Below, in pieces: positions 1,401 through 37,995 of a stretch of 64,000 nucleotides of DNA. The DNA is from Pirellula sp. Lineage in GTDB: Bacteria > Planctomycetota > Planctomycetia > Pirellulales > PNKZ01. The position numbers were made by a program, and so were the translations under genes. The stretch covers positions 124,001 to 188,000 of the forward strand of contig PNKZ01000011.1 in assembly GCA_013822735.1 (NCBI GenBank), in the 5' to 3' direction. Position 1 is the first letter of the stretch; each line of letters opens with the position of its first letter. Below the pieces are notes generated by a model. The model had not been told where the DNA came from. It saw only the letters and a list, made by a program, of their open reading frames with translations, and did not search any database.

Positions 1401-1431
1401 TCGCAGTCGGCGATGTGAACGTAAAATCGCG

Positions 1432-1857
1432 CTAGCCGGCGCGAGCAATGCGTCGTTCTAAACGACGCAGCGCGGCTGCGAGGATTTCCCGCTGTTCGCA
1501 TTTTCCGAGCGTCTCGAGTGCTTCCTCGGCGGGAAGCCAGCGCCGCTCGCGCCAGGCTGCTTCTTTCCAAGTACGTCGGCTTTGCACGACGAGCATCGAG
1601 AAGCAAACGATCCGTCGCGTTGTGCCGAGCTTCTTCCGCTCGTACGAGCCGAGTGAGTCGCCGACGATGCGGCCGCACAGCCCTGCTTCTTCCCATGCTT
1701 CCTTGAGCGCGGCTTCCGTTTCCGTCTCACCCGGCTCAATGTAGCCCTTGGGGAAGACCCATTGCCGTTTGCGAAGCGAAGTCACCAAGCAAATTTCCAG
1801 CCGACCGTGGCTGACGCGGTAAGGAATCGCGAGGGCTTGATGGAAGTTGCTAGACAT
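1432..1857 (-). CDS. Nudix hydrolase
   Basis: The 141-residue protein contains a Nudix box (GYIEPGETETEAALKEAWEE followed by AGL), matching G-x5-E-x7-[RK]-E-x2-E-E-x-G-[LIV] except that the usual Arg is Lys. Nudix enzymes hydrolyse nucleoside diphosphates linked to another group, using a metal bound by the Glu residues. The preceding WVFPKG is typical of the diadenosine-polyphosphate or diphosphoinositol-type subgroup, but the substrate is unproven. The length is normal for a single-domain Nudix protein. The gene converges on the oxidoreductase at 384-1400, with only about 31 nt between the stops. The start is an ATG at 1857. Confidence 0.87.
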   Translation of the reverse strand: MSSNFHQALAIPYRVSHGRLEICLVTSLRKRQWVFPKGYIEPGETETEAALKEAWEEAGLCGRIVGDSLGSYERKKLGTTRRIVCFSMLVVQSRRTWKEAAWRERRWLPAEEALETLGKCEQREILAAALRRLERRIARAG

Positions 1858-2479
1858 GGACGACGGCCGATTCCTTGGGGGATATAACCCCTTTTATCCA
1901 CTCGATGACGACAATTTCAGCGGGCACCTACCATTGCGGCAAAGTGATTTCGTCTGCTGCAAATCTCGCATCTTTATCAACTATAGTTGATTGTTTTTTT
2001 CGTGCTCTAGATCAGTTTGCAAACTTTCCAACGATTTCTCGATGGCAGCTTCACCACGTTCGAATCGTGTTAGGGAACTGGCGAGTTCGCAAACACCGCC
2101 GTTTGTCGCTCGAAGGTGCGGTTTTTACTCGGTCGACAGTCGCGCGGTGGTATCGGAAACTGACCGGCCTTCGAGCGAAAACCGCGCACGCGCGCTCCAA
2201 ACTTGAGACATTTTTCCCGCCTTGAGACAAATTCACGCGCCAAATTACCGCAGGCACTGCCGGCAGGCAAGTCTACTCAAAGTCTTAAGTCGTTTTGCAG
2301 CAGTCGTTTGTGCGTTGTCGTGTATTGCCGTCGATGCGACGACAGCCGATCGGCATCGCGTTTGCTCCTAGTGAGAGCGACTCAGTGAGCCTGGGCTCGC
2401 TTGGTCTGCCGATTTGCAGGCACGCAACACGGCAACCATCACTCAAGTGCCGCAGTATTTGGTCAAGGAGGACACGGTC
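1858..2479. other. Long intergenic region upstream of csrA
   Basis: About 620 nt separate the divergent Nudix and csrA genes. The stretch around 1900-2020 is clearly more AT-rich than its surroundings and holds a perfect 16-bp palindrome at 1976-1991 followed by a T-run. An open frame at 1875-2225 lacks recognisable motifs and is not called. The region probably holds the promoters of both genes and a long csrA leader. Confidence 0.5.
1976..1991. promoter_or_regulatory. Perfect 16-bp palindrome, operator-like
   Basis: ATCAACTATAGTTGAT reads identically on both strands and is followed on the plus strand by TGTTTTTTT. It lies between the divergent Nudix and csrA genes. This suits a binding site for a dimeric regulator. 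A short intrinsic terminator on the plus strand is the alternative, but there is no plus-strand gene just upstream and the stem would have no loop. Confidence 0.4.
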
Positions 2480-2770
2480 ATGCTCGTACTCAGCCGCAAG
2501 CAAGGGGAACAGATCCGCATCGGCGACAACATCGTGGTGACGATTCACCGCCTCTCGGGCAACCGAGTGAGCTTGGGAATTGAAGCCCCGGCCGATTGCA
2601 AGATCATGCGTGGCGAGTTGCGCGAGCTTCTCGAAGGGGTCGAAATCGAGGTCCCCGCTCGCCCCGCCCGACAGGAAACGACCGCCGTCAAGCAACCGCC
2701 GATGAGCAAGCACGTCGGGGAAAACCGTATCGCGCAGATCATCGAAAAATCGCTGCGGACGGCGAAGTAG
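2480..2770 (+). CDS. csrA: Carbon storage regulator CsrA
   Basis: The 96-residue protein begins MLVLSRKQGEQIRIGDNI, the canonical start of the CsrA/RsmA family, and continues with the RNA-binding segment ending KIMRGEL. CsrA dimers bind GGA motifs in mRNA leaders and alter translation or stability. The core fold needs about 55-60 residues; the remaining ~35 form a polar tail (PARPARQETTAVKQP region) of unknown role. The ATG at 2480 was chosen because AAGGAGGA at 2465-2472 is an excellent ribosome site and the family motif starts there. A second, diverged copy lies at 10840-11217. Confidence 0.93.
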   Translation: MLVLSRKQGEQIRIGDNIVVTIHRLSGNRVSLGIEAPADCKIMRGELRELLEGVEIEVPARPARQETTAVKQPPMSKHVGENRIAQIIEKSLRTAK

Positions 2771-2846
2771 ATATGCTGATTCTCGTCCTGCTTTGTCAGG
2801 CAGTTGGAGTCGTTTACGCTCACGTTACGTTCGTGGTGCGCGCTTG

Positions 2847-3575
2847 TCAGAGGGCGCCTGCGGTGAGGCGCGTGACGGCGATGGCCCCGGCGAAGCATTG
2901 AGCTACGTCGCACCCTGCGGATCGCGGTCGATCTTGGTAGCGGCCGCGATAGAGAATTCGGTCCCCGGCAGTTTCATAACGCACGTCTAGTCGACTGGCA
3001 TCGAGCGGACAGTGCACCAACGTCGGTACTTCCGCATCGCGACCTGTCGTGCTTGCTCCTAACAAGCTCGGCGGCGGATCAGGCAGATTGACGTTCCAAA
3101 AAGCTCCGTCCGAGAGCTTCGTTGCCAGCAGTTCGCGTAATACGCGCCGCGTCCAGTTCACCGCTCGTCGCCAATCCACCGGCTCGCGCGACCGGCGATA
3201 TTGAGAAACGGCGATTCCCGGCACGTTCCACAGCGCCGCTTCGCGCACGCCCGCCACGGTGCCCGAAATCCACACGTCGGCCCCCAGATTTCCGCCGGGA
3301 TTAATGCCGGCGAGCACGAAATCGACGTCGAGCTTGAGATGCCCGAGAGCCACGCGAACGCAATCCGCCGGTGTGCCGTCGAGTCGATAACGACGGCTGC
3401 TCAACTCCTGCAGTTCCAACGGGCGATCGACGGTCACGCGGTGGCTGCAGCCGGAGAGTTCGACGTGGGGAGCAACGATGTTTACTTCGCCGAATTCGCC
3501 GGCCACCTCGGCCATGGCAGCCAGCCCGGGGGCGTCCACTCCATCGTCGTTGGTGAGTAAGAATCGCAATTTCAA
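2847..3575 (-). CDS. surE: 5'-nucleotidase SurE
   Basis: The 242-residue protein starts MKLRFLLTNDDGVDAPG, the SurE signature in which the two Asp bind the catalytic metal. It continues with VNIVAPHVELSGCSHRVT, RLDGTPADCVRVAL and AGINPGGNLGADVWISGTVAG, all hallmark SurE segments. SurE dephosphorylates nucleoside monophosphates and sometimes short polyphosphates. Length is typical. The start codon is TTG (3573-3575) and overlaps the TGA stop of the upstream aminotransferase in the shared bases TTGA, so the two genes are probably translationally coupled. The metabolic link between them is not evident. Confidence 0.93.
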   Translation of the reverse strand: MKLRFLLTNDDGVDAPGLAAMAEVAGEFGEVNIVAPHVELSGCSHRVTVDRPLELQELSSRRYRLDGTPADCVRVALGHLKLDVDFVLAGINPGGNLGADVWISGTVAGVREAALWNVPGIAVSQYRRSREPVDWRRAVNWTRRVLRELLATKLSDGAFWNVNLPDPPPSLLGASTTGRDAEVPTLVHCPLDASRLDVRYETAGDRILYRGRYQDRPRSAGCDVAQCFAGAIAVTRLTAGAL

Positions 3576-4789
3576 AATCGCTCCTCGTCGTTCGCAGTGG
3601 CTTCCAAACTCGCCGCGAGCTCATATTTGCCGTCGCGAAGACCTTCGGCAAGGTCGCGAATCGTTTCCGCGACGCGCCGAATCTCTTCTTCGGGCTCAAG
3701 TAGAACGGGATGGTGCAGCAGCAGCATCTGCTCGCTGAATTCGGTGGAAACCGCGAGGTCGCCGCTACGTCGACACCGGGCGCCGCCGCGTTTGGTAAAT
3801 CCTCGGAATCCTGTATCTAAAGCAATGCCTTCGGCGCGAACCGCGGCGCGGAAGACGCTCCGTTCGACAGCTCGCATGGAAGGTGCGTTGTAGCGGATGC
3901 CGAACTTGTAAAACGCCAGCTCCGATTGCTCAGGCCAACGGGCGATGCAACTGAAACCGTCGACGCCGCCAAGATGTTCGATCAGCGTTCTCGCTCCCTT
4001 ACTTCGGCGGCCGTGTCGTTCGCCCAGCTTTTCCAACTGCGGCAACAGCACGGCGGCTTGAAGTTCGCTGAGGGGAAAAGCGTCGTTTCCTTCCTCGCAA
4101 TACACTTTCATGCGCTGCGCAACATCGGTCCGTTGCGTGACGACGGCTCCGCCGCGACCGGCCGTCAACAGTTTGCTGCCGCCGAAACTGAACGTTCCGA
4201 CGTCGCCCCACGTACCGGCGGGTCGGCCGTAAACGACGGCGCCGGAAGCTTGGCAAGCATCTTCGACCACCGCGAGTCCGTGGGTTTTCGCCGCCTCGAA
4301 TAGTCGCGGCATGTCGACTAGGCCGCCGTGCAGGTGCGAAGCGATGACGGCCTTGGTCTTAGGTGAACACGCTGCGGCAATGAGGGTCGGATCGATGCCG
4401 CACGTGGTGCGATCGAGATCGACCAACACCGGAACCGCGCCGACGGCGGTAATCGCACGAAAGTTCCCGGGGAAGTCATACCCGCCGAGTAGCACTTCGT
4501 CCCCTGCCCCGACCCCCAGCCCGCGCAGCGCCAACTCCACGGCGACGCTTCCGGAGCTACAAAGCCGCACGTGCTCGATCGCTAAGTCGCGCTGTAATGC
4601 GGTACGCAATCGGTCGCAATGCGGTCCGAGATACTTCCCCCATGAGCCGTCGGCATAGCACGCTTGGAGGGCGGCCAAGACGGCGGGATCGTCGACGGGC
4701 CATGGCGGCGGACCGGCCGGAAATGCCGGAGTACCGCCGCAAATTGCCGGAATGCGTGCCACGGATTCGAAGTACCTACTCGCGTACAA
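3572..4789 (-). CDS. DegT/DnrJ/EryC1-type PLP-dependent aminotransferase
   Basis: About 405 residues of fold-type I PLP enzyme. LCSSGSVAVELALRGLGVG binds the cofactor phosphate, VVEDACQASGA supplies the Asp that contacts the pyridine nitrogen, and FSFGGSKLLTAGRGG contains the Lys expected to form the internal aldimine. This is the order seen in sugar aminotransferases of the DegT/StrS family, which make amino-sugars for cell-envelope glycans, natural products or cofactors. The exact substrate is unknown and no sugar-nucleotide genes are adjacent. The start is uncertain: the frame opens with a TTG at 4789, a GTG at 4762 is an alternative, and neither has a clear ribosome site. The 3' end overlaps surE by 4 nt. 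Confidence 0.85.
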   Translation of the reverse strand: MYASRYFESVARIPAICGGTPAFPAGPPPWPVDDPAVLAALQACYADGSWGKYLGPHCDRLRTALQRDLAIEHVRLCSSGSVAVELALRGLGVGAGDEVLLGGYDFPGNFRAITAVGAVPVLVDLDRTTCGIDPTLIAAACSPKTKAVIASHLHGGLVDMPRLFEAAKTHGLAVVEDACQASGAVVYGRPAGTWGDVGTFSFGGSKLLTAGRGGAVVTQRTDVAQRMKVYCEEGNDAFPLSELQAAVLLPQLEKLGERHGRRSKGARTLIEHLGGVDGFSCIARWPEQSELAFYKFGIRYNAPSMRAVERSVFRAAVRAEGIALDTGFRGFTKRGGARCRRSGDLAVSTEFSEQMLLLHHPVLLEPEEEIRRVAETIRDLAEGLRDGKYELAASLEATANDEERF

Positions 4790-4947
4790 CTCAGGAAGCG
4801 AAGACTTTCAGCATCATACCGGCATTAGCGCGGCGTCGGCGTTCCGACCCGCCGCGCTGGTTCTAGTACCGGATCTAGCTTATTCTAATCAATCTCACGG
4901 CCCAGGTTGCCGGAGATTTCTTCAGCTTGTGGTGAGAGAAAAGAATC

Positions 4948-6069
4948 ATGGCTCGGCTGCGCTACGTGATGATCGGCGGATTTCTGGGAGCCGGCAAAAC
5001 AACGTTGATCGGCAAGCTCGCGCGAGCTTATGCCGACCAAGGCTTAAAGGTCGGCATCGTAACGAACGATCAAGCTCACGGCTTGGTCGATACGATGTCG
5101 CTCCGTGCGCAGGGCTTCGAGGTCGGCGAAGTGACCGGCGCCTGCTTCTGCTGTAAGTTCAACGATCTGGTGCGTGTGGTCGGTGAGCTCTCTCCGGACG
5201 GCCGGCCCGACGTCGTGTTGGCGGAACCGGTCGGAAGCTGCACCGACTTGGCCGCAACGGTCATGGAACCTCTTAAGCATCTCTACGGCGCCGAGATCGA
5301 GCTTGCCCCGTTGGCGGTGCTGCTCAAGCCCGAGCATGGCGAAAAGATTTTGGGCGACGCCGCGGATGTGGGCTTCTCGGCCAAGGCGGCCTATATCTTC
5401 CGCAAGCAATTGGAGGAGGCCGACTTCGTCGTCGTGAACAAGATCGACAAGCTCTCGCCGGAGCGAGTCGAGCGATTGGTGAAGATGCTGAACGAACAAT
5501 TTCCCGGTAAGCAGACGATCGCCGTCAGTGCGAAGTCCGGCGTCGGATGCGATGTCTTGGCCGAGCGATTGAAGCAGCCCGCCGTCGAGCGCATGAGTAC
5601 GCCGGAAATGGATTACGACGTCTACGCGGAAGGGGAAGCGGAGCTGGGCTGGCTTAATTGCACGGTGCGTTTTTCGTCGCAAACTCCGGTCGACGTGGAT
5701 CAACTGCTTGTGAACTTCGTCGAACGCTTGGCGGCCGAGTGCCGCAAGTGGGACGCCGAGCCGGCGCATCTCAAGGTGCTCGCGTCGGGCGACGACATCG
5801 TCGCCATCGCGAATTGGGTGTGTTCGACGGTGCCGCCGGAGTTGTCGGTGGCGTCGGGCGCGAAAGCCGCGGAGTTGGACCTCGTGGTCAATGCTCGCGT
5901 GGCCGTGGCGCCCGAGGGGCTCACGCTCACGGTGAACAACGTTGCCGACCAACTCGCGCTGGCGCTGGCGTCGCAAGGCAATGCCTCATCGTGCGAAGTG
6001 GTCGACATGCAGAGCTTCCGCCCGGGCCGACCGATGCCGACGCATCGTATGCCGGTCGGGCATGCTTAA
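4948..6069 (+). CDS. CobW/COG0523-family GTP-binding metallochaperone
   Basis: The 373-residue protein has a Walker A GGFLGAGKTTLIGKL near residue 10, the metal-binding CFCCKF motif (CxCC) near residue 67, a Walker B-like DVVLAEPVGSCTDL, and a G4 motif NKIDKL. This is the architecture of the COG0523 G3E GTPases, which deliver Zn, Co or other metals to target enzymes. The C-terminal ~130 residues form a separate domain unlike the usual CobW C-domain. With no cobalamin or zinc-uptake genes next to it, the metal cannot be assigned. The start is an ATG with a weak purine-rich ribosome site (GTGAGAG). Confidence 0.85.
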   Translation: MARLRYVMIGGFLGAGKTTLIGKLARAYADQGLKVGIVTNDQAHGLVDTMSLRAQGFEVGEVTGACFCCKFNDLVRVVGELSPDGRPDVVLAEPVGSCTDLAATVMEPLKHLYGAEIELAPLAVLLKPEHGEKILGDAADVGFSAKAAYIFRKQLEEADFVVVNKIDKLSPERVERLVKMLNEQFPGKQTIAVSAKSGVGCDVLAERLKQPAVERMSTPEMDYDVYAEGEAELGWLNCTVRFSSQTPVDVDQLLVNFVERLAAECRKWDAEPAHLKVLASGDDIVAIANWVCSTVPPELSVASGAKAAELDLVVNARVAVAPEGLTLTVNNVADQLALALASQGNASSCEVVDMQSFRPGRPMPTHRMPVGHA

Positions 6070-6109
6070 GTTCGACGCGTAAATTCGTTATTGCTGCGAG
6101 CGGCCGCGG

Positions 6110-7267
6110 TTAGTCGAGCGTCTTCACGTCGGTAAACGGATACGGCACGGCATGGTCCGGCGTCATGCGCTGCGCCGTCATCCAGGAATACTCGGTCTCT
6201 GCGGGATCGGCCGGATCAGGATCGCGGAGCGGTTTGCCGTCGGCCTCGGCATAGATGGTGCGGACGACCGGCACCCGTCGGCCGGCCTTTGGGGCGAGCT
6301 CATAGTCGGACCCGCGCGTTTGCAGAAACCACGTGTTGTCGCGGAAGCCCGATTCCAAACGCCGCCCGGCCGCCGCTTGGTAAACCTTCTTCGCGCTCTC
6401 GTCGAGCGATGCGTCGGCGGCAATCGCCTGCGTCAACTTTTGCGTTTCGGAAACATCGAAACTCACCCAGCCGTACGGCGGCAGATAGGCTTCCAACTTG
6501 CAGTGCGACGGCGAACTCTTGGGAAACGTATTGAGCCCGTACGTCATGCGCGTGGGGTATCCCATGGCCCGGCCGACCGCGGCGCAGAAACTGTGATAAT
6601 CGCTGCAGTGTCCGCCGCCGGCGTCAAATAGATGCTCGCTGTCGGCGCGCAGCGAGGCGTTGCCGTGGTCGTACCGGAATTCCTTGCGAACGTAGTCCAT
6701 GACATCCGCCAAATCGCTCGCTGCGTTGGTGCGCTTCGGTGCAAGCTGCGCGAGCAGCGTTTGATGGCGATCGCCGACGACGACGGCCTGGCTCTCGCTG
6801 CGACGATACTTTGCGAACGATTCCGGCCATGACGCCGGAGCGACGATTCTTGCGGGATCGACATTCCAGCGCAGCTCCCAGACACGCACCTGAAACTTGC
6901 GGCGAATGATCTGCGCACCTTGCGGCGACGGGAATTCGAAATACGCGAAGCGATTTTGAAACTGCTCCTCCGTGCCGATTTGCGGTTCGACCGTTTGCGG
7001 AAAGGTCGTTGTTTCTTGCTCCGTTACTTCCTGAGCGAAGTCGCTCGGCGGCAGCGGCACCCACACTCGCAATAGCTTCGTCTTATACGGGGCCGTCACG
7101 ATGATCGAGTAATCGATGTCGTAAACGACGGGGTTGCTGCGCTCGGCGACGTACGGTTGGTCGGGAGCAAGCGCTGCCGCTTCCTCGGCGGCTGGAAGCG
7201 ACATCGTCGACAGGCCGACGAGCACGAAGGCCCCGAGTATGCGAAGCCGAAGGTTAGCGTGTGGCAT
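6110..7267 (-). CDS. Secreted transglutaminase-like protein
   Basis: The 385-residue protein has an N-terminal signal peptide (hydrophobic to about residue 26, then PAAEE). It carries a transglutaminase core with GGGHCSDYHSFCAA (Cys221), SHCKLEAY (His255) and GWVSFDVSE (Asp271), the Cys-His-Asp triad of the superfamily. Bacterial members are mostly proteases or amidases acting outside the cytoplasm. The N-terminal ~150 residues form a beta-rich domain, as in planctomycete relatives. The 5' end overlaps the 3' end of the GNAT gene by 14 nt, so the two are probably co-transcribed. The start is an ATG at 7267. Confidence 0.82.
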   Translation of the reverse strand: MPHANLRLRILGAFVLVGLSTMSLPAAEEAAALAPDQPYVAERSNPVVYDIDYSIIVTAPYKTKLLRVWVPLPPSDFAQEVTEQETTTFPQTVEPQIGTEEQFQNRFAYFEFPSPQGAQIIRRKFQVRVWELRWNVDPARIVAPASWPESFAKYRRSESQAVVVGDRHQTLLAQLAPKRTNAASDLADVMDYVRKEFRYDHGNASLRADSEHLFDAGGGHCSDYHSFCAAVGRAMGYPTRMTYGLNTFPKSSPSHCKLEAYLPPYGWVSFDVSETQKLTQAIAADASLDESAKKVYQAAAGRRLESGFRDNTWFLQTRGSDYELAPKAGRRVPVVRTIYAEADGKPLRDPDPADPAETEYSWMTAQRMTPDHAVPYPFTDVKTLD

Positions 7268-7835
7268 GCGAGGGCGTATCCGAAATCGATTCGGGAATCA
7301 GTGAGAAGATGGCCGCGTCGTTTTGCACGCCGTGAATACGGAGCCGGTTGCGGGCCGTGCCTTCGTAGACGGCGCCCACCTTCGCCGCCACGCGCTGACT
7401 GGCGACGTTGCCGACCGCGGCGACGATTTCAAGGCGTTTCAATCCTAATTGCTCAAAGCCGAACCTCGCCACGGCCGGTACAGCTTCCGAGGCGATGCCC
7501 CTTCCTTGGCGGCTCGCGCGAATCCAGTAGCCGAGGTTGGCTCGCAATCGTGCCCGGTCGATCTCGTTGATCGTGCAGCAGCCGACGAAGCCGCCGCCGT
7601 CGCGATCGAAGAGATAGAACCCGTAGAACTCGCCGCTACGCCAAGCCCGATCGCAGGCGGTCAGCCAAGTTTCGCTGTCTTCGAGCGTCATGGCGGGGTG
7701 ACACCACGAGAGCCAACGCCCCACGGCGTCCATCGATTCGCGCGCGGCTTCAAAGTGCGCCATGGCGTCGTCGATGTTGCCGGGGCGCAGCACGAGACGC
7801 GGCGTGACGATTTGCGTGAGCGGTGAGAGCGACAC
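7254..7835 (-). CDS. GNAT-family N-acetyltransferase (RimJ/RimL-like)
   Basis: The 193-residue protein begins with the RimJ/RimL-type strand IVTPRLVLRPGNIDDA. It contains LGYWIRASRQGRGIASEAV, in which RQGRGIA is the acetyl-CoA pyrophosphate-binding loop, followed by LGLKRLEIVAAVGNVASQRV. Such enzymes acetylate protein N-termini, antibiotics or small amines; the target is unknown. The only in-frame start with a full N-terminus is a GTG at 7835, without an obvious Shine-Dalgarno. The gene overlaps the downstream transglutaminase gene by 14 nt. Confidence 0.85.
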   Translation of the reverse strand: MSLSPLTQIVTPRLVLRPGNIDDAMAHFEAARESMDAVGRWLSWCHPAMTLEDSETWLTACDRAWRSGEFYGFYLFDRDGGGFVGCCTINEIDRARLRANLGYWIRASRQGRGIASEAVPAVARFGFEQLGLKRLEIVAAVGNVASQRVAAKVGAVYEGTARNRLRIHGVQNDAAIFSLIPESISDTPSHATR

Positions 7836-30911: not shown

Positions 30912-32480
30912 CTACGATGTGACACCGAGCAGTTCGGACGCTTCCGCGTAGCCGGCGGCCGGTTGATTGGCTTCGCTGGCCGTCACGCGGGCCAAGGCGA
31001 TGAGTTGCCGCCATTTGTGCGCCGGGCGGGCCGCGGCAAACTCTTCGCTCGTCGTGCGGTAGAACTTCTCCGCGTGGAGGGCTCCCTCTTCGCTGCAAGC
31101 GTACTTCAAGAGCGTCTCGAAGACCGGGCGAGGCGGATAGCCGAGCATGCTGATGCGGCGGACGACGGCGCAGGCCCGCTCTTGATCGTTCTCGCGGATC
31201 GAGCCGTTGAGTTCCTTGAGCAAACTCTCGGCGTCGTTGGCCGCGACGCGCTTGAGTACTTCGTCGGTCGGGCGCGGTTGCCAATTGAGGAAGTCGCCGC
31301 CCCGCTCGATGCGGTCGAGCGCCGCTTGGTAGCCGGCGAGAATCAGACAGGCGTTGCGATTGCGGTGGTTGGCCGCGGCGGCCATGGTGCGCCAAGCGTG
31401 GGCCGAGTCGCAGGCATGTACGCCGATGGAGTCGCCGTGGACGCTTCCTTCCGGCTTGCCGGCTTGCACCTGCTTCCCGGTGCGGCCGGAGTCGCGCAGG
31501 ATGAGCTCGTTCGTCGCCAGCGCAATCGCCAGACCGACGGCATCCGGCTCGAAACCTTCGGCGAGGGCTGCGGCGACGGCGTCGGCCGCGCGAGCCGGAG
31601 TTGCTTGGAAGATCGTCCGGCTGAGTTCTTCGACCCAGGCGTCTTCGGCGGCGCGCGTTCCCGCCTGCTTGCCGGCGAGCTTGTGCTGGTCGAGCAACCG
31701 AGGCAGCAGCGTGCGAATCTCCGGATGGCGTTTCCGATTCCACGCTTCTTCTTTGACGCAGTAGTGCACCGATTGCCGGAGCATGGTTTGTGCTTGTTCG
31801 AGGCCGACGATCTTGAGCATGTCGACGCAGCGCGACGCGAGCACGATGCGATGGACGTCGGCCCCTTCGGTGACCGTGTCGAGCAAGGCGTTGAACGCGG
31901 CATCGGCGTCGCCTGCCGCGGCGAGCGCGGCCTCGGCGGCTTGATAGTTGCGCTGCTCGACCGCCGCGCGCAAGCGCTCGCCGGCCTGCGCCGCGGGTTT
32001 GCCGTCGCTCGGGATCACGGTGGCGAGCTTCTCGTTCTTGCGCCCTCCCTGATCTTGGAGACGCTTCGTATTGCGATAGAGCACCTTGAGTACGGGGAGA
32101 GCGCGTCGCTCGGCAGGCAACTCTTGCGACATAGCCAAAGCCGGCGACATCGCCATGAACGTGTGGAAGCCGATGTAGTCTTCGCCGCCGAAGGTGCGCG
32201 CATTGGCCAGCGCGCCGGCCGCGATGAGCTCTTTCAGGTCCTGCCCTTGATTGAGCCGCGCCACTAAGAGCGGCAGCAGCTTATCGATGGGTGTTTCTTG
32301 CAAGAGACACACGAGTTCTTCTCGCGCGCCGAACGTCAGCGGCGTCGCTGCGGCGGCCTCCGCTTCAGCCGCGCAGGCCCGGGTGAGCCCCAGGTCGACG
32401 GCCGTGCCGTAACCGACTCCGGCAATGAGCATTCCTCGCGAAACATCGGCGAGAAACGTGCGACGATTGCTGCGGTCCAT
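30912..32480 (-). CDS. Tat-signal protein of unknown function
   Basis: The 522-residue protein begins MDRSNRRTFLADVSRGM, a twin-arginine signal followed by a hydrophobic stretch ending near ARACAAE. The mature part is almost entirely helical (Ala/Leu/Glu-rich) with conserved-looking HTFMAMSPALAM, SVHGDSIGVHACDSAHAW and NHRNRNACLI, suggesting a catalytic or metal site built from His, Asp and Cys. No domain name can be given with confidence. GGAG at correct distance supports ATG 32480. It is the first gene of a minus-strand run reaching to 22705. Confidence 0.72.
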   Translation of the reverse strand: MDRSNRRTFLADVSRGMLIAGVGYGTAVDLGLTRACAAEAEAAAATPLTFGAREELVCLLQETPIDKLLPLLVARLNQGQDLKELIAAGALANARTFGGEDYIGFHTFMAMSPALAMSQELPAERRALPVLKVLYRNTKRLQDQGGRKNEKLATVIPSDGKPAAQAGERLRAAVEQRNYQAAEAALAAAGDADAAFNALLDTVTEGADVHRIVLASRCVDMLKIVGLEQAQTMLRQSVHYCVKEEAWNRKRHPEIRTLLPRLLDQHKLAGKQAGTRAAEDAWVEELSRTIFQATPARAADAVAAALAEGFEPDAVGLAIALATNELILRDSGRTGKQVQAGKPEGSVHGDSIGVHACDSAHAWRTMAAAANHRNRNACLILAGYQAALDRIERGGDFLNWQPRPTDEVLKRVAANDAESLLKELNGSIRENDQERACAVVRRISMLGYPPRPVFETLLKYACSEEGALHAEKFYRTTSEEFAAARPAHKWRQLIALARVTASEANQPAAGYAEASELLGVTS

Positions 32481-32647
32481 GGCGGGGCTCCTGCAAGAAG
32501 ACGAGGAGACGAAACGACCGGCGCGGTATGACGGCCGTCCCTGATGGTAAAGCTCCGGTGTGTGATACGCAAAGTTTTTTGGAACGTAGATTGTTGCCCT
32601 CGGCTCGCTTGCCGCCCGATTCATTTGAAAGCCGCTTTAGGAGCGCC

Positions 32648-32667
32648 GACGATAATTGTTCATCGTC
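32648..32667. promoter_or_regulatory. Inverted repeat upstream of the HSP90-like gene
   Basis: GACGAT and ATCGTC are separated by 8 nt (AATTGTTC), about 40 nt before the start of the HSP90-like gene. It could be an operator. It does not match the CIRCE heat-shock element. No convincing promoter was placed. Confidence 0.3.
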
Positions 32668-32705
32668 TGCGACCGGGCTGTGGGAAATGTCTATCGGGGA
32701 AGTGC

Positions 32706-34523
32706 ATGAGCGGCAAGCATCGATTTCAGGTCAACTTGCGAGGCATCGTCGATCTACTGGCCAAGCATCTGTACAGCAGGCCGGAGCTATTCTTGCGTGA
32801 GCTGCTTCAGAATAGTGTTGATGCGATCACGGCGCGCAAGCGGCTTGACGACCGGTACGAAGGATCCATTCGGCTCGAAATCGCGCCGGCTGATGACGGC
32901 TTACCGACATTGACGATCGTCGATGACGGAATCGGCATGGATGAAGCGGAGTTGCACCGGTTTTTGGCGACGATCGGGGAAAGTTCGAAGCGCGACGGAG
33001 GCGCCTTCCTCGGGCAATTCGGAATCGGGATGCTGGCCGGATTCATGGTCAGCGATGAAATTATCGCCGTCTCTAAATCAGCGCGCAGTGATTCGCCCGC
33101 CGTTCAATGGCACGGCAAGGAAAACGGTACTTACGACGTTCGAACGTTGGCCGCGGATATCGAACCCGGCACCCGCGTTTCGCTTCAGTCGCGCGCGGAT
33201 TGCACGGAACTTTTCGAGCCGACGAGAATCGCGGAATTGGCGCTTCATTTCGGGAGGCTGCTGCCGTATCCGATATACGTCAATGAGCTTGGCGGCGCGG
33301 GCTCGCCGATCAACTCCGAGACGGTGCCGTGGCGCGCGTCGTTTAAAACGGAGCGGGCGCAAACCGCGGCATTGCTGGAGTACGGACGTCGTGCCTTGCG
33401 AGAAGATTTTCTCGACGCGGTACCACTGAAGTCGACCGCGGGCGGAGTCGACGGCGTAGCGTATGTTTCCGCGCACTCGGTCAATTTGGCCGCGCAGCGA
33501 AAACATCAAGTGTATTTGAAGAACATGTTGTTGAGCGACGAGGCCGAAGGACTGCTCCCGGAGTGGGCGTTCTTTGTGAAAGCGGTCGTCAACGTCGAAA
33601 GGTTGCGGCCGACGGCATCGCGCGAGGGATTTTACGTCGATGAGAGACTGGAGGCGACGCGGACGGAACTAGGCGAGTGTCTCAAGCAGTATTTGATGCA
33701 TTTGCCGCAGCGCGATCCGCAGCGCTTTGAGCGGTTTCTGGCCGTCCATCATTTGGCTTTGAAGTCGCTGGCGGCGGAAGACGACGACTGTTTTCGAATA
33801 TTCATTGATTGGCTTCCATTTGAAACGACATACGGTCGCAAGACGATTCGCGAATTGCGCGCAGATGGAGCGGAAGTTCGGTACGTAGCGGAACTTGGCC
33901 AGTTCTTGCAGATCGCCAAGGTAGCACAGGCGCAGGGGTTGCTAGTCGTCAACGCGGGCTATGTTTACGACGCCGCTTTGCTGGGGCGCGTAAGTGAGGT
34001 GTTTCCTGATTTTCAGGTGCTGCCGGTCGACGTGGCGCAATTCTCCGCCGACTTAGCCGAGCCGACCGCCGAGCAGCAGCGGTTAGGACGACAATTTCTC
34101 GACGCCGCCATGGTAAGTCTGCGGCCGTACGACTGCATAGCGGAGTTAAAGCGCTTTCAGCCGCCGGAACTGCCGGCGCTCTTCGCACCAGATCAAGAAG
34201 CACGTTTTTTTCGCTCCGTGGAACAGGCCCAAGAAACCGCGGACCCGCTCTACGGCGGAATTCTGGCGGCGTTGACGTCGCATCGATCGGCGCCTCGGTC
34301 CATCGTTTATTTCAATGTCGAAAATTCGACGGTGCGCCGTCTGCTGGGGGTCGGCGACGAACGCGTGCTGGCGCGATCTGCAGAGATTCTCTACGTGCAG
34401 TCCCTGTTGCTCGCACAACAGCCTTTGACGTCGCGCGAATTGTCGTTGCTTACCCGAGGGCTCGGCGGATTGATCGACGCGGCCGTTGAGCGAAAGGAGC
34501 AGCCCGATGTCGATGCCGTTTGA
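32706..34523 (+). CDS. HSP90-family (HtpG-like) ATPase
   Basis: The 605-residue protein keeps the GHKL ATP site: SRPELFLRELLQNSVDA (Glu31, Asn36, Asp39), IVDDGIGMDEAEL, GESSKRDGGAFLGQFGIGML and GTRVSLQ. The middle part has the HSP90 segments PIYVN and VYLKNMLLSDEAEGLLPEW, and RPTASREGFYVD, where the Arg could serve ATP hydrolysis. It differs from ordinary HtpG (NSVDA for NASDA, a divergent and short C-terminal domain, end PDVDAV rather than MEEVD), so it belongs to the divergent HSP90-family group, not the housekeeping chaperone. ATG 32706 has GGGGAA upstream. The 3' end overlaps the next gene by 17 nt. Confidence 0.85.
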   Translation: MSGKHRFQVNLRGIVDLLAKHLYSRPELFLRELLQNSVDAITARKRLDDRYEGSIRLEIAPADDGLPTLTIVDDGIGMDEAELHRFLATIGESSKRDGGAFLGQFGIGMLAGFMVSDEIIAVSKSARSDSPAVQWHGKENGTYDVRTLAADIEPGTRVSLQSRADCTELFEPTRIAELALHFGRLLPYPIYVNELGGAGSPINSETVPWRASFKTERAQTAALLEYGRRALREDFLDAVPLKSTAGGVDGVAYVSAHSVNLAAQRKHQVYLKNMLLSDEAEGLLPEWAFFVKAVVNVERLRPTASREGFYVDERLEATRTELGECLKQYLMHLPQRDPQRFERFLAVHHLALKSLAAEDDDCFRIFIDWLPFETTYGRKTIRELRADGAEVRYVAELGQFLQIAKVAQAQGLLVVNAGYVYDAALLGRVSEVFPDFQVLPVDVAQFSADLAEPTAEQQRLGRQFLDAAMVSLRPYDCIAELKRFQPPELPALFAPDQEARFFRSVEQAQETADPLYGGILAALTSHRSAPRSIVYFNVENSTVRRLLGVGDERVLARSAEILYVQSLLLAQQPLTSRELSLLTRGLGGLIDAAVERKEQPDVDAV

Positions 34524-35586
34524 GATCGAGACGTTGGTGCGAGAAGCGGATGCCCTGCCGCATTGCGAAGCACAGGTGGCGTTATACGAGCGCGCCGTGG
34601 CTCTGGCCGACAGCGTGAACGACTTGCAGGCCGGCTACGAATTGCGTTTGAAGCTCATGATGAGCGCCGTGTTCGCCGGTCGCACGGAACTAATGTTCGT
34701 CGCGTTTTCTTGGTGTAGCGCACAGTCGGATCGCAGGCCGGAGCAGTTTCCGATCAGGAATCTCTTGTGGCAATTCAAATGGTTTGTCGACAATTTGGGG
34801 GACTTTCCGCAAATCTCCCTAACGCAGATCAACGCGGCGTTTGACGACATGCGCCGCCGGTACGTCCAGCACGGCGCGTCGCTTCACGCCGTATGGAACA
34901 TACGCCGTCAGCTTTCGCTCATCCTTCGAGATTTTGAAGAAAGCGATCGTTGCCACGAGGAGTTTAAGAACTCGCGTCGCGACGAATTTAGCAATTGCAT
35001 CGCCTGCGTGTCGTCCGGGGAAATCGAATACTTTGCCGGCAGGCGCCGCTGGGAGCTCGCCGTCGAGTCGTTTGATCGGCACATCTCCGACGGAAAACGC
35101 TGTTTGACGCAACCGGCCGTGGCATACAGCCGTGTGTTGCTGCCGCTGGCGAAGCTCGAGCGCTGGGACGAGGCACGTGAGTATCAGCGTAAGGGATATC
35201 GCCTGGCGCGCAATCAATCCGGGTTTACCTTAGTGTTTGCGCGGCACCTGTACTTCGCCGCGCTGGATAACAACGTGGCGGCGGCAAAGCGAATGGCGGC
35301 ACTGCATACCGAAGCGGCGCTGCGCGCCACGTCCGTATACGATCGAATGCAGTATGTGACGGCGCTCGGAGCTTGTGCGCTCTGCATACGGCGCAGCGGC
35401 GGCGGCAAGATCACGCTGCCGCTGCCCGCAGAAATGCAATTGGCCGACGCCAAAGGAAAAGTTGACGTAGCCGCATTGCTAGAGTGGTGTCGCGCCGACG
35501 CCGTGGCAACTGCCGAGCTGTTCGACAAGCGTAACGGCAATTCTCACATCAGCCGCGAGGTCAAAGAATGGTTGTCGATGACATAG
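34507..35586 (+). CDS. Helical-repeat (TPR-like) partner of the HSP90-like protein
   Basis: The 359-residue protein is predicted all-helical with TPR-like pairs of amphipathic helices, for example HCEAQVALYERAVALADS near the N-terminus and AKLERWDEAREYQRKGYRLA near residue 225. There is no signal peptide or membrane segment. It starts 17 nt inside the end of the HSP90-like gene, with AAAGGAG seven nt before ATG 34507, so the two are translationally linked. By analogy with TPR co-chaperones it may recruit clients to the ATPase; this is inference. Confidence 0.7.
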   Translation: MSMPFEIETLVREADALPHCEAQVALYERAVALADSVNDLQAGYELRLKLMMSAVFAGRTELMFVAFSWCSAQSDRRPEQFPIRNLLWQFKWFVDNLGDFPQISLTQINAAFDDMRRRYVQHGASLHAVWNIRRQLSLILRDFEESDRCHEEFKNSRRDEFSNCIACVSSGEIEYFAGRRRWELAVESFDRHISDGKRCLTQPAVAYSRVLLPLAKLERWDEAREYQRKGYRLARNQSGFTLVFARHLYFAALDNNVAAAKRMAALHTEAALRATSVYDRMQYVTALGACALCIRRSGGGKITLPLPAEMQLADAKGKVDVAALLEWCRADAVATAELFDKRNGNSHISREVKEWLSMT

Positions 35587-35634
35587 CGTCGCAAAGCGAA
35601 GAGCTCGACGCTTAGCGCAGATTGCCGACGCGAA

Positions 35635-37995
35635 TCAGCAGGCGTTCTGCTTGGCATGCACCGTGCCGTCGCCGGCCGTGCGGCCGTTTGCGGCGTGGCC
35701 GTTCGACGCTTGTCCGTTGGCCGCGGCTTGCGCCGTGCTCAGGAGCACGAACGGTTCCACGTACGTTTCCGGCTTCGAGCCTTCCGCCGGCACGACGTTG
35801 ATCAACACGCACTTGAAGGCCGGCGTTTTCGATGACGGATCGCGCGAGCGCGGCACCAGGACGTTTGCTTCCGGGCAGTACATCAAAGCGTTGCCCGGGC
35901 GGATTTTGTCGAACGACCGCACAATCACGTTTTGCATTCTTCCGACTTCGTTGGAGATGTGGCAGCGATGGTCGGCTTTGAGCCCGAGGCGCGTGATGTC
36001 GTCGGGGTGCAGGGCGATGATGTCGCGGCGGTCGATGCCGCGATACAGATCGTAGTCTTCGTATACGACGGTATTGAACTGCCCTTCACTCCGCACGGTC
36101 ATCATGCGGAGTTGGCCGATCGCCGGGTCGGAAAGATCGCCGCCGGCAAGTTCGGGCAGGTCGTGCGTCTTGAGCATCGCCTTGCCGCTGGGGGTCGGAA
36201 ACTTCGGCGTGTGGAACGTCCGTCCGGCGATCTGGAATTCCTTCTTGGTGGCGTCGATCGTTTTGATTTCGTCGAAGCCGGGGACCACCGCCGCGATCGT
36301 CTCGCGAATCTTGCGCGTGCTTTCCATGCCGCGCCAATCGATGGGGCCGGTCACCTCGGAGCCGAGCACCCCTTGCGCTATGTGGGCGATGATTTCGACT
36401 TCGCTCCGCGGGCCTTCGTGGCGGCGCGGGCCGCCGTCGCTCAAGCGAATGTAGCTGAACATCGATTCTTGCGTCGTCGGCTGCGGCTCTTCGTCGCGGG
36501 CCAGCACCGGCAGAATGATCGTGTCTTCGCCGGCTAGGCCGTGCGCGTGGCCCGTGTTGAGCGTGGTGTTCATGTAGACCAGAAGGTCGAGGCCGCGGAG
36601 CGATTGCGCGGCGTATGTGGCGTCGGGGTTCGAGCCGAAGAGGTTGCCGCCGAGGCAGAAGCCGGCGCGCATCCGACCGGTATCCGCGGCTTCCATGCAG
36701 CCCATGGTGTCGAGGCCGGGCGTGGTGGGGAGTTTGATTTGAAAGTGGTCTTGGAGCCGTTGGAAAATCGCGTCTTTCAGCTTCGGAGTGACGCCGACGG
36801 AGCCGATGCCCTGCACATTGGAGTGGCCGCGGATCGGCATGAGCCCCGCCCCGGGCCGACCGACCATGCCGCGCATCAGGGCCAAGTTGGCGATGGCCTC
36901 GACGTTGAGCACGCCGTGCACGTGGTGCGTGATTCCCATCGTCCAAGAGAAGACGACGTTCTTCGCCTTGGCGTAGCGCTGGGCCATGTCGTCGATCTCG
37001 GCCTTCGTGACGCCGGACTTCGCGAGAATCTCTTCCCAAGGTGTGGCGCGCAGCCGAGCTTCGAGCTCGGGCCACCCTTCGCAGTAGGTTTCCAGAAACG
37101 GCCGGTCGATCGCATCCATCTCGAGAATGCGCTTCGAAATGCCGGTGATCATCGCTAAGTCGCCGCCAATGTGCGGCTGCACATAAAGCGTGGCGATTTT
37201 CGTGCCGAAGAGCATGCTCAGCGGGTCGCTCGGCACGCGGAAGTTCACGAGCCCGATTTCGACGACCGGATTGACCACGATGATTTCGGCGTTGCGCTTG
37301 CTCATCTCTTTGAGCGAAGTCATCAGCCGGGGATGGTTGCTCGCCGGATTACCGCCGATGACGAACATGCAGTCGGCAGTTTCGAGGTCGTGCAATTGAA
37401 TGGTGCCGACGCCCGAGCCGAGTACGTTCGACAGGCCGACGCCCGAGGCTTGGTGGCAGTAGTAGCTGCAATTGTTGACGTTGTTCGTCCCGTAGACGCG
37501 AGCGAACAGCTGCAGCAAGAAGCCGGCTTCGTTCGAGCTGCGGCCGCTGAAGTACCAGAACGATTCGTCGGGCTGGGTGGCGCGGAGCTTGTCGATGATG
37601 CGCCGGTACGCTTCGTCCCAGGAGATCGGTTCGTAATACTGCGAGCCTTTGCGCAGGAGCACCGGGTCGACGAGTCGACCGCAGGTCTCAAGCTCGCGCG
37701 GGGAGAAGGCTTGCAACTGCGCGACGGAGTAGGTCTTCCAGAAGTCCGGCTTGATGGCGCCCTGCATGTCGGACGCCATGGCCTGCAAGCTCTTCTTGCA
37801 GACTTCCGGGAAGTGGCCGGTTTCGTTGACCATGCCGCCGGCTTGGCCACCCATGCCGAGCGCACAGGTCTTGCAGGCGTTCTTGGAGCGCATCGCGGTC
37901 CAAAACTTCCACAGTTTCCACCCGCTCGATTCGCGGGCCTTGCGCCAGGTGTACCAAACGGCTTGCCAGCCGCCGCCGGAGGTTCGCTTTTTCAT
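35635..37995 (-). CDS. FdhF/YdeP-type molybdopterin oxidoreductase
   Basis: The 786-residue protein has an N-terminal SKNACKTCALGMGGQAGGM (Cys41, Cys44), characteristic of the YdeP branch. The molybdopterin domains include WDEAYRRIIDKL, NCSYYCHQASGVGLSNVLGS, MFVIGGNPASNHPRLM, RGHSNVQGIGSVGVTP and ILPVLARDEEPQPTTQES, and a C-terminal dinucleotide-binding domain ends before a low-complexity Ala/Gly/Asn tail. YdeP-like proteins resemble formate dehydrogenase but their substrate is unresolved; YdeP is linked to acid resistance in E. coli. The start is an ATG at 37995 with no strong ribosome site. It converges on the TPR-like gene. Confidence 0.88.
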   Translation of the reverse strand: MKKRTSGGGWQAVWYTWRKARESSGWKLWKFWTAMRSKNACKTCALGMGGQAGGMVNETGHFPEVCKKSLQAMASDMQGAIKPDFWKTYSVAQLQAFSPRELETCGRLVDPVLLRKGSQYYEPISWDEAYRRIIDKLRATQPDESFWYFSGRSSNEAGFLLQLFARVYGTNNVNNCSYYCHQASGVGLSNVLGSGVGTIQLHDLETADCMFVIGGNPASNHPRLMTSLKEMSKRNAEIIVVNPVVEIGLVNFRVPSDPLSMLFGTKIATLYVQPHIGGDLAMITGISKRILEMDAIDRPFLETYCEGWPELEARLRATPWEEILAKSGVTKAEIDDMAQRYAKAKNVVFSWTMGITHHVHGVLNVEAIANLALMRGMVGRPGAGLMPIRGHSNVQGIGSVGVTPKLKDAIFQRLQDHFQIKLPTTPGLDTMGCMEAADTGRMRAGFCLGGNLFGSNPDATYAAQSLRGLDLLVYMNTTLNTGHAHGLAGEDTIILPVLARDEEPQPTTQESMFSYIRLSDGGPRRHEGPRSEVEIIAHIAQGVLGSEVTGPIDWRGMESTRKIRETIAAVVPGFDEIKTIDATKKEFQIAGRTFHTPKFPTPSGKAMLKTHDLPELAGGDLSDPAIGQLRMMTVRSEGQFNTVVYEDYDLYRGIDRRDIIALHPDDITRLGLKADHRCHISNEVGRMQNVIVRSFDKIRPGNALMYCPEANVLVPRSRDPSSKTPAFKCVLINVVPAEGSKPETYVEPFVLLSTAQAAANGQASNGHAANGRTAGDGTVHAKQNAC

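Follow-up and report, generated by a model that had tools for sequence, protein, structure and literature searches.

A two-gene unit at positions 32706 to 35586 on the plus strand of a 64,000-nucleotide stretch of Pirellula DNA (G000:C11:124001-188000, the whole of which we call the window, within a 6.88-Mb genome that is 99% complete) encodes an HSP90 family protein and a second protein, here called the partner, predicted to fold as a tetratricopeptide repeat (TPR) superhelix. Genes for this type of HSP90 and for the partner occur together with near-absolute regularity in the genome samples that we searched. We consider it fairly probable that the pair comprises an accessory HSP90 and its dedicated TPR adaptor or co-chaperone, which would dock on the HSP90 by a surface other than an EEVD tail. 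The features of the unit are:

32706 to 34523, plus strand: gene for the HSP90 family protein (NF010683/PRK14083), 605 amino acids, with N-terminal GHKL ATPase, middle and C-terminal domains; 702.3 bits in NCBIfam, and a predicted model
34507 to 35586, plus strand: gene for the TPR-superhelix partner, 359 amino acids, ATG at 34507; mean predicted local distance difference test score (pLDDT) 97.0, predicted template modelling score (pTM) 0.93, with TPR superhelices at the top of the fold list
34507 to 34523, plus strand: overlap of the two genes, 17 nucleotides, read from the sequence
34493 to 34499, plus strand: AAAGGAG, likely ribosome-binding site of the partner, inside the HSP90 gene and 7 nucleotides ahead of the partner ATG, read directly
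32799 to 32813, plus strand: ATP-site residues E32 to N36 (ELLQN), E32 and N36 invariant in 36 rows; aligns with ELISN of TRAP1
32922 to 32936, plus strand: ATP-site residues D73, G75 and G77 (DDGIG), invariant in 36 rows
33012 to 33029, plus strand: G-box GQFGIG, residues 103-108, with G103, F105, G106 and G108 invariant in 36 rows
33621 to 33623, plus strand: middle-domain arginine R306 (in ASRE), invariant in 36 rows; aligns with SRE of TRAP1
34996 to 35007, plus strand: partner C164-x-x-C167, invariant in 80/80 full-length rows and also in the partner alignments A3 and A4
35101 to 35103, plus strand: third invariant partner cysteine, C199, in 80/80 full-length rows
35530 to 35535, plus strand: partner R342-N343 of the C-terminal RNG motif, each in 78/80 full-length rows
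32498 to 35625, no strand assigned: stretch without counterpart at two sites in the same genus (the unit plus margins), where the flanks are near-adjacent (L189, G520:C404, and L190, G518:C348)

A first, sequence-only reading of this DNA had named rare co-occurrence of the two genes, or a partner other than a helical-repeat protein, as refuting its proposal, and the proposal survived both checks. Three taxon samples, 499 genomes in all, were each searched with the HSP90 family model and with a partner profile (A3, 29 rows). Each sample was centred on a genome that carries the pair, and some rows of A3 come from G000, G044, G047 and G079 and from the sample centres G204 and G214. Among the 199 Planctomycetota genomes the HSP90 scored over the cut-off in seven (G000, G018, G044, G047, G079, G107 and G164), and the partner appeared at E below 1e-80 in exactly these seven, with a weak match in G016 (8.6e-4); 110 genomes of this sample have some HSP90-like match and 8 have any partner match. 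The 151 Bacilli genomes include 14 with the HSP90 over the cut-off, exactly the 14 in which the partner was found at E below 1e-100, and weak partner matches occur in G273, G327 and G338 (about 1e-16), G272 (4.7e-4) and G361 (7.2e-4). Four of the 149 Actinobacteria genomes carry the HSP90, and exactly those four carry the partner. Summed over the three samples, the partner is present in 25/25 HSP90 genomes versus 0 strong and 6 weak matches in the other 474 (Fisher p about 1e-42, or 7e-37 when the weak matches are counted too, with kinship between genomes ignored). The genes are adjacent in 22 of the 25 genomes: 4/7 in Planctomycetota, 14/14 in Bacilli (counting G289, where partner fragments sit between the HSP90 and the partner) and 4/4 in Actinobacteria. 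The partner was also present in 21/21 genomes searched from 22 chosen HSP90 loci, a result expected from the way the loci were chosen. In the plasmid collection, six of the seven records with a partner match show an adjoining PRK14083-like HSP90 match, the seventh being from Actinomyces oris; in that record (L121) a YbjN-domain gene lies two genes upstream of the partner. Tree distances of HSP90 and partner are correlated (r = 0.81 over 31 pairs, against at most 0.39 in 2000 permutations), and shared ancestry alone would likewise raise this value. A search of the genome_contigs collection with the single partner sequence found no relative; the relatives used here were reached through the HSP90 loci and then with an iterated profile.

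The layout of the pair was read from the best 80 of 521 stretches with HSP90 relatives in genome_contigs, some of which repeat sampled genomes. By record title, these 80 loci come from at least six phyla (Planctomycetota, Myxococcota, Acidobacteriota, Deinococcota, Bacillota and Actinomycetota). The partner is present in 76 and lies downstream on the same strand in 75; its domain starts within 213 nucleotides of the HSP90 stop in 74 and within 70 nucleotides in 73, and in 27 a possible (inferred) partner start codon overlaps that stop by 4 nucleotides. Exceptions to the layout are two loci that stop at a contig end (L055 and L090), two whose partner is elsewhere in the genome (L059, which is G164, and L070, which is G018), one where HSP90 and partner are convergent (L062) and L041, where two small open reading frames (ORFs; 2200-2933), by eye an antitoxin and a PIN-domain toxin, sit between the HSP90 and the partner. 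At L037 (L008/L037) the order is reversed, with the partner ahead of the HSP90. Partner copies can be multiple, with two in tandem in G047, G202, G265 and G551 and seven matches, some partial, within 7 kb in G207. A Listeria monocytogenes record shows an 'HSP90 family protein' gene beside fri, followed by two partner genes and an SMI1/KNR4 gene. In an excerpt of PMC3534079 lmo0942 is the neighbour of fri, which would make lmo0941 the first Listeria partner; lmo0941, annotated as 'hypothetical', is listed in an excerpt of PMC6901971 among loci with signs of selection. As a control, the partner was sought at 24 loci of other HSP90s, within flanks of up to about 1.5 kb, and 0/24 gave a match at E 10. 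The gene after the HSP90 in G164, G018 and G191 is a different one, unrelated to the partner (dehydrogenase-like by eye). A conserved gene, dehydrogenase-like by eye, follows the HSP90 instead of the partner at L033, L034 and L038, from three related planctomycete genomes. Among the neighbour clusters listed (at least 4 loci each, among the 60 largest) no third conserved gene was near-universal beyond the HSP90, the partner and apparent antisense ORFs over them, and five small clusters, of 5-9 loci each, bring together two or three groups.

The ATPase had at first been described as a divergent HSP90 with an intact GHKL site. It is a real HSP90, and no unknown protein: it belongs to NCBIfam NF010683/PRK14083, "HSP90 family protein" (curated cut-off 455 bits), and falls below the cut-off of the canonical HtpG model NF003555 (166.1 vs 371 bits). 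It is also the sole HSP90 found in this genome, where NF010683 gives one match and the HtpG model finds the same gene only. The predicted HSP90 model (mean pLDDT 89.3, from a 36-row alignment) aligns over up to residues 7-598 with full-length TRAP1, HtpG and Hsp90, at Z 24.7-30.4 among the 50 matches listed; the fold comparisons of both proteins rest on the matches listed. The glutamate, asparagine and aspartate of the ATP site, the G-box and the middle-domain arginine have catalytic roles in HSP90s, and E32, N36, D73, G75, G77, G103, G106, G108 and R306 are invariant across the 36 aligned relatives, which bears out the intact site. The 19 PRK14083-type rows cluster together (100/100) in a tree of 40 HSP90-type proteins, and the 12 HtpG-type rows are separate (100/100), while the 9 other HSP90-like rows (76/31) are not firmly one group. 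The window protein ends in PDVDAV and not in EEVD, as had been noticed from its sequence, and among 88 HSP90 C-termini, duplicate records and one contig-truncated protein included, 0/88 end in EVD. As for stress induction, no CIRCE-like operator (controlling inverted repeat of chaperone expression) was seen in the upstream regions, the best score being 6 mismatches in the 87/88 rows with sufficient upstream sequence, and 8 in the window.

The partner gave nothing over cut-off in Pfam, NCBIfam or PADLOC, and the window copy has no TPR match in Pfam at E 1. When 40 relatives were scanned singly, their NCBIfam matches were no better than E 0.03; a few of the relatives have TPR matches (best E 1.5e-6). 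The predicted model of the partner, from a 40-row alignment, has 17 helices and two 3-residue strands. Foldseek returned chiefly pentatricopeptide repeat and TPR proteins at E about 2e-4 to 1e-2, and a second fold comparison gave APC5 (Z 22.6, 322 residues, 4.7 A) and MalT domain III (Z 21.4, 317 residues, 4.8 A), with NprR (Z 18.9) and Rap (Z 18.5) also high and Tom70 lower (Z 14.4). Because high Z comes easily with helical repeats, these matches show a TPR superhelix and not a function; at the level of the predicted model, they confirm the helical-repeat partner that had been proposed from the letters. Domain scans of the partner and its relatives found no effector, DNA-binding or thioredoxin domain. 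C164, C167 and C199 (CxxC...C) are invariant in 80/80 full-length rows, and each of W88, K91, P203, R342 and N343 is conserved in 77 or 78 (80 full-length of 88 rows, with near relatives and duplicate records included). In the model C164 and C167 open one helix and C199 lies in the loop before the next-but-one helix, a placing by which the three cysteines may meet; probably they bind a metal ion or serve as a redox switch in the superhelix. The actinobacterial partner ORF is about 1000 amino acids or more (one is cut by a contig end), and the three that were scanned all have TPR matches in the C-terminal part, two of them over Pfam cut-offs. The distant partner-like proteins of G273, G327 and G338 (L170, L171 and L172) are about 350-370 amino acids long, DCxxC is kept in L171, and the gene beside them resembles an Rrf2-type regulator by eye.

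Within the genus the pair behaves as a unit. The partner was absent from three other genomes of the genus and three others of the family that were searched, and was present in 3/57 genomes searched, the window's own included. The flanks that match 30919-32497 and 35626 onward are separated by 3.1 kb in the window, by 104 bp in G520:C404 and by 234 bp in G518:C348, and with the flanks nearly side by side in relatives without the pair, the two genes come or go together. The site at G520:C392 is occupied by 1.3 kb of different sequence, and G519 lacks the left neighbour at this place; the G520 assembly is 8% contaminated. Both neighbouring genes in the window are on the minus strand; the left one (30912-32624) gave no NCBIfam match and the right one (35635-37995) encodes an FdhF/YdeP-family oxidoreductase (701.9 bits). 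The G+C content of the pair is 58.6% vs 62.3% for the window, and only 0.5% of same-size windows are equally low. The gene overlap, the ribosome-binding site inside the first gene, the flanking genes on the opposite strand and the lower G+C content all agree with the sequence-only reading. A scan for sigma-70 promoters and terminators found nothing in excess of shuffles. Viral contigs gave three partial matches only. Three records of the phage collection cover at least 80% of the HSP90: MT837560, an unverified 6.6-kb faecal scaffold that carries HSP90 and partner, a 1.6-kb Listeria phage record, and a Salmonella whole-genome shotgun contig with an HSP90-like gene of the other type discussed below.

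If the partner is an adaptor or co-chaperone, the PRK14083-type HSP90, presumably acting as a dimer, would run the usual ATP-driven clamp cycle, and the TPR superhelix would bind it through a surface other than a C-terminal EEVD peptide and would either bring selected clients to it or control its cycle. Tandem partner copies and extra TPR arrays could then let one HSP90 serve several clients. Eukaryotic HSP90 works with TPR co-chaperones through its C-terminal MEEVD, and the lack of EEVD among the HSP90 C-termini argues against that docking mode here. An adaptor is the simplest account, and explains why the partner is kept when unlinked, is multiplied beside a single HSP90 and gains TPRs in its actinobacterial form. 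That the proteins bind, that the partner serves as an adaptor and that the pair has clients of its own would follow from this account, and client handling is plausible. Several observations weigh against it. Adjacency is lost in 3/7 Planctomycetota genomes (G018, G164 and G107), which carry the partner elsewhere. Partner-like proteins occur in the three Bacilli genomes with matches at about 1e-16, whose HSP90 matches stay below cut-off, and the Actinomyces oris record encodes a long partner protein (L121:7962-10997) with no HSP90 in the 17 kb fetched. G191, a draft of about 1340 contigs, has HSP90 pieces (440 bits and less, under the cut-off) and no partner match. No conserved C-terminal peptide was seen among the 88 HSP90 C-termini.

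The main rival turns the relation around and makes the TPR protein an obligate client, a sensor or regulator that needs this HSP90 as a private chaperone to fold or stay active. The near-absolute co-occurrence and the several partner copies next to one HSP90 would suit it equally, and the TPR regulators MalT, NprR and Rap are among the best fold matches of the partner. These matches are generic, however, the partner has no detected effector or DNA-binding domain, and the scanned actinobacterial copies add TPRs only, which fits an adaptor better than an output protein; we regard the client relation as unlikely, at perhaps one chance in a handful. Contact between the proteins is dispensed with altogether if the genes are merely co-transcribed and co-inherited for a shared stress role, for which the want of any measured contact speaks. 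Their co-occurrence outlasts lost adjacency in three genomes and reversed order at L037, so that co-transcription alone is no explanation, and we hold this alternative to be improbable.

The earlier reading had also raised phage defence. In such a conflict or anti-phage system the TPR protein would be the sensor, and the HSP90 ATPase would serve as the signal or effector unit. Its patchy distribution, its presence or absence as a unit, the antitoxin-like and toxin-like ORFs of L041 and a distant planctomycete HSP90-like protein with a TIR domain, which has three ORFs behind it (the two scanned being TPR-rich), lean that way. So do 82 PADLOC models matched at E 1e-10 or better among 130 neighbour ORFs, a scan with no control set (130 of 176 ORFs, taken by simple ORF length, with L075, L088, L094, L096, L101, L104 and some others left out). 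Among the 25 of these models that were listed, however, each matched 2-4/130 proteins, mostly PD-T4-6, which we take to be a kinase-type model, and such matches may be generic; the scans detected no toxin, nuclease or membrane domain in either protein, PADLOC gave weak matches in the ATPase domain only, and the viral contigs yielded nothing beyond their partial matches. Phage defence is not supported, and we judge it very improbable. Of the bacterial HSP90/TPR module proposed at the outset, the identity of the HSP90, the TPR nature of the partner, the conservation of the pair and the absence of EEVD docking are supported.

The accessory HSP90 with a TPR adaptor may have counterparts elsewhere. 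Ten loci whose HSP90-like proteins score under the PRK14083 cut-off were given an exploratory look, and in six of them the following gene has TPR matches at E 0.01 or better. These matches are over Pfam cut-offs at the planctomycete loci L196, L201 and L202 and below them on a P. aeruginosa plasmid (L193), on a Xanthomonas plasmid (L194, whose next gene is annotated as a TPR protein) and on a Salmonella contig (L195, E 0.007). In the three gammaproteobacterial cases (L193:5890-10131, L194:5956-10179 and L195:5962-10109) the HSP90-like gene is followed by one for a protein of about 770 amino acids with weak TPR matches. The downstream ORF had no Pfam match at L198 and L199, there was no callable same-strand downstream ORF at L200, and L197 was left out of the scan of downstream genes. 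The partner profile found no match at E 1 in these loci. At L196 (also L010) the HSP90-like protein (4987-7608, minus strand) has a C-terminal TIR domain (E 1.1e-19), and three 383-amino-acid ORFs come after it (1418-4950, minus strand), two of them scanned; this set is possibly a conflict system. It is a tentative idea, somewhat short of an even chance in our estimate, that bacteria evolved their own EEVD-independent HSP90-TPR machines more than once, namely the PRK14083 clade with its three-cysteine TPR superhelix and a second HSP90-like set (Pseudomonas, Xanthomonas, Salmonella and other planctomycetes, one of them TIR-fused) often followed by a TPR protein without detectable relation to the partner, and that the partner is the first dedicated bacterial HSP90 co-chaperone family.

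Together these results suggest that certain HSP90s of bacteria have a dedicated helper, as those of eukaryotes have. If true, an HSP90 clade in at least six phyla with a private TPR partner would qualify the view of E. coli HtpG as a stand-alone chaperone. The pair would offer a two-protein system for studying HSP90-TPR cooperation without MEEVD, and a first way into a lineage of bacterial HSP90s with no role found in the open-access literature searched. Among the papers listed in the searches of that literature, none dealt with the pair; subscription journals and preprints were mostly outside its coverage.

Among known systems, the window HSP90 is a member of NF010683/PRK14083, and the partner has no family in NCBIfam, Pfam or PADLOC. 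Chen et al. 2006 (PMC1525184), in the portions of the article consulted, divide bacterial HTPG into three groups (A, B and C), of which C is basal, and report two copies in different groups in S. coelicolor; the term 'TPR' does not occur in the main text of that article. Group C is probably the lineage of the window HSP90. Canonical HtpG shares the three-domain HSP90 fold and the ATP site with the window protein, but forms the separate tree group described above, and the control loci of other HSP90s lack the partner. For E. coli HtpG, an excerpt of a 2014 article (PMC4428384) states that no co-chaperones have been identified so far. CnoX, a thioredoxin plus TPR protein linked to protein quality control in an excerpt of PMC10490939, resembles the partner as a TPR protein with a CxxC; the partner differs in having no detected thioredoxin domain, in placing its CxxC at the start of a superhelix helix and in its invariant third cysteine. 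Eukaryotic Hsp90 with Hop/Sti1, FKBP51 or Cpr6 has the pairing of an HSP90 with a TPR protein in common with the Pirellula unit, but here the HSP90 has no EEVD tail, and the partner is a whole-length superhelix whose top listed fold matches are APC5, MalT and NprR.

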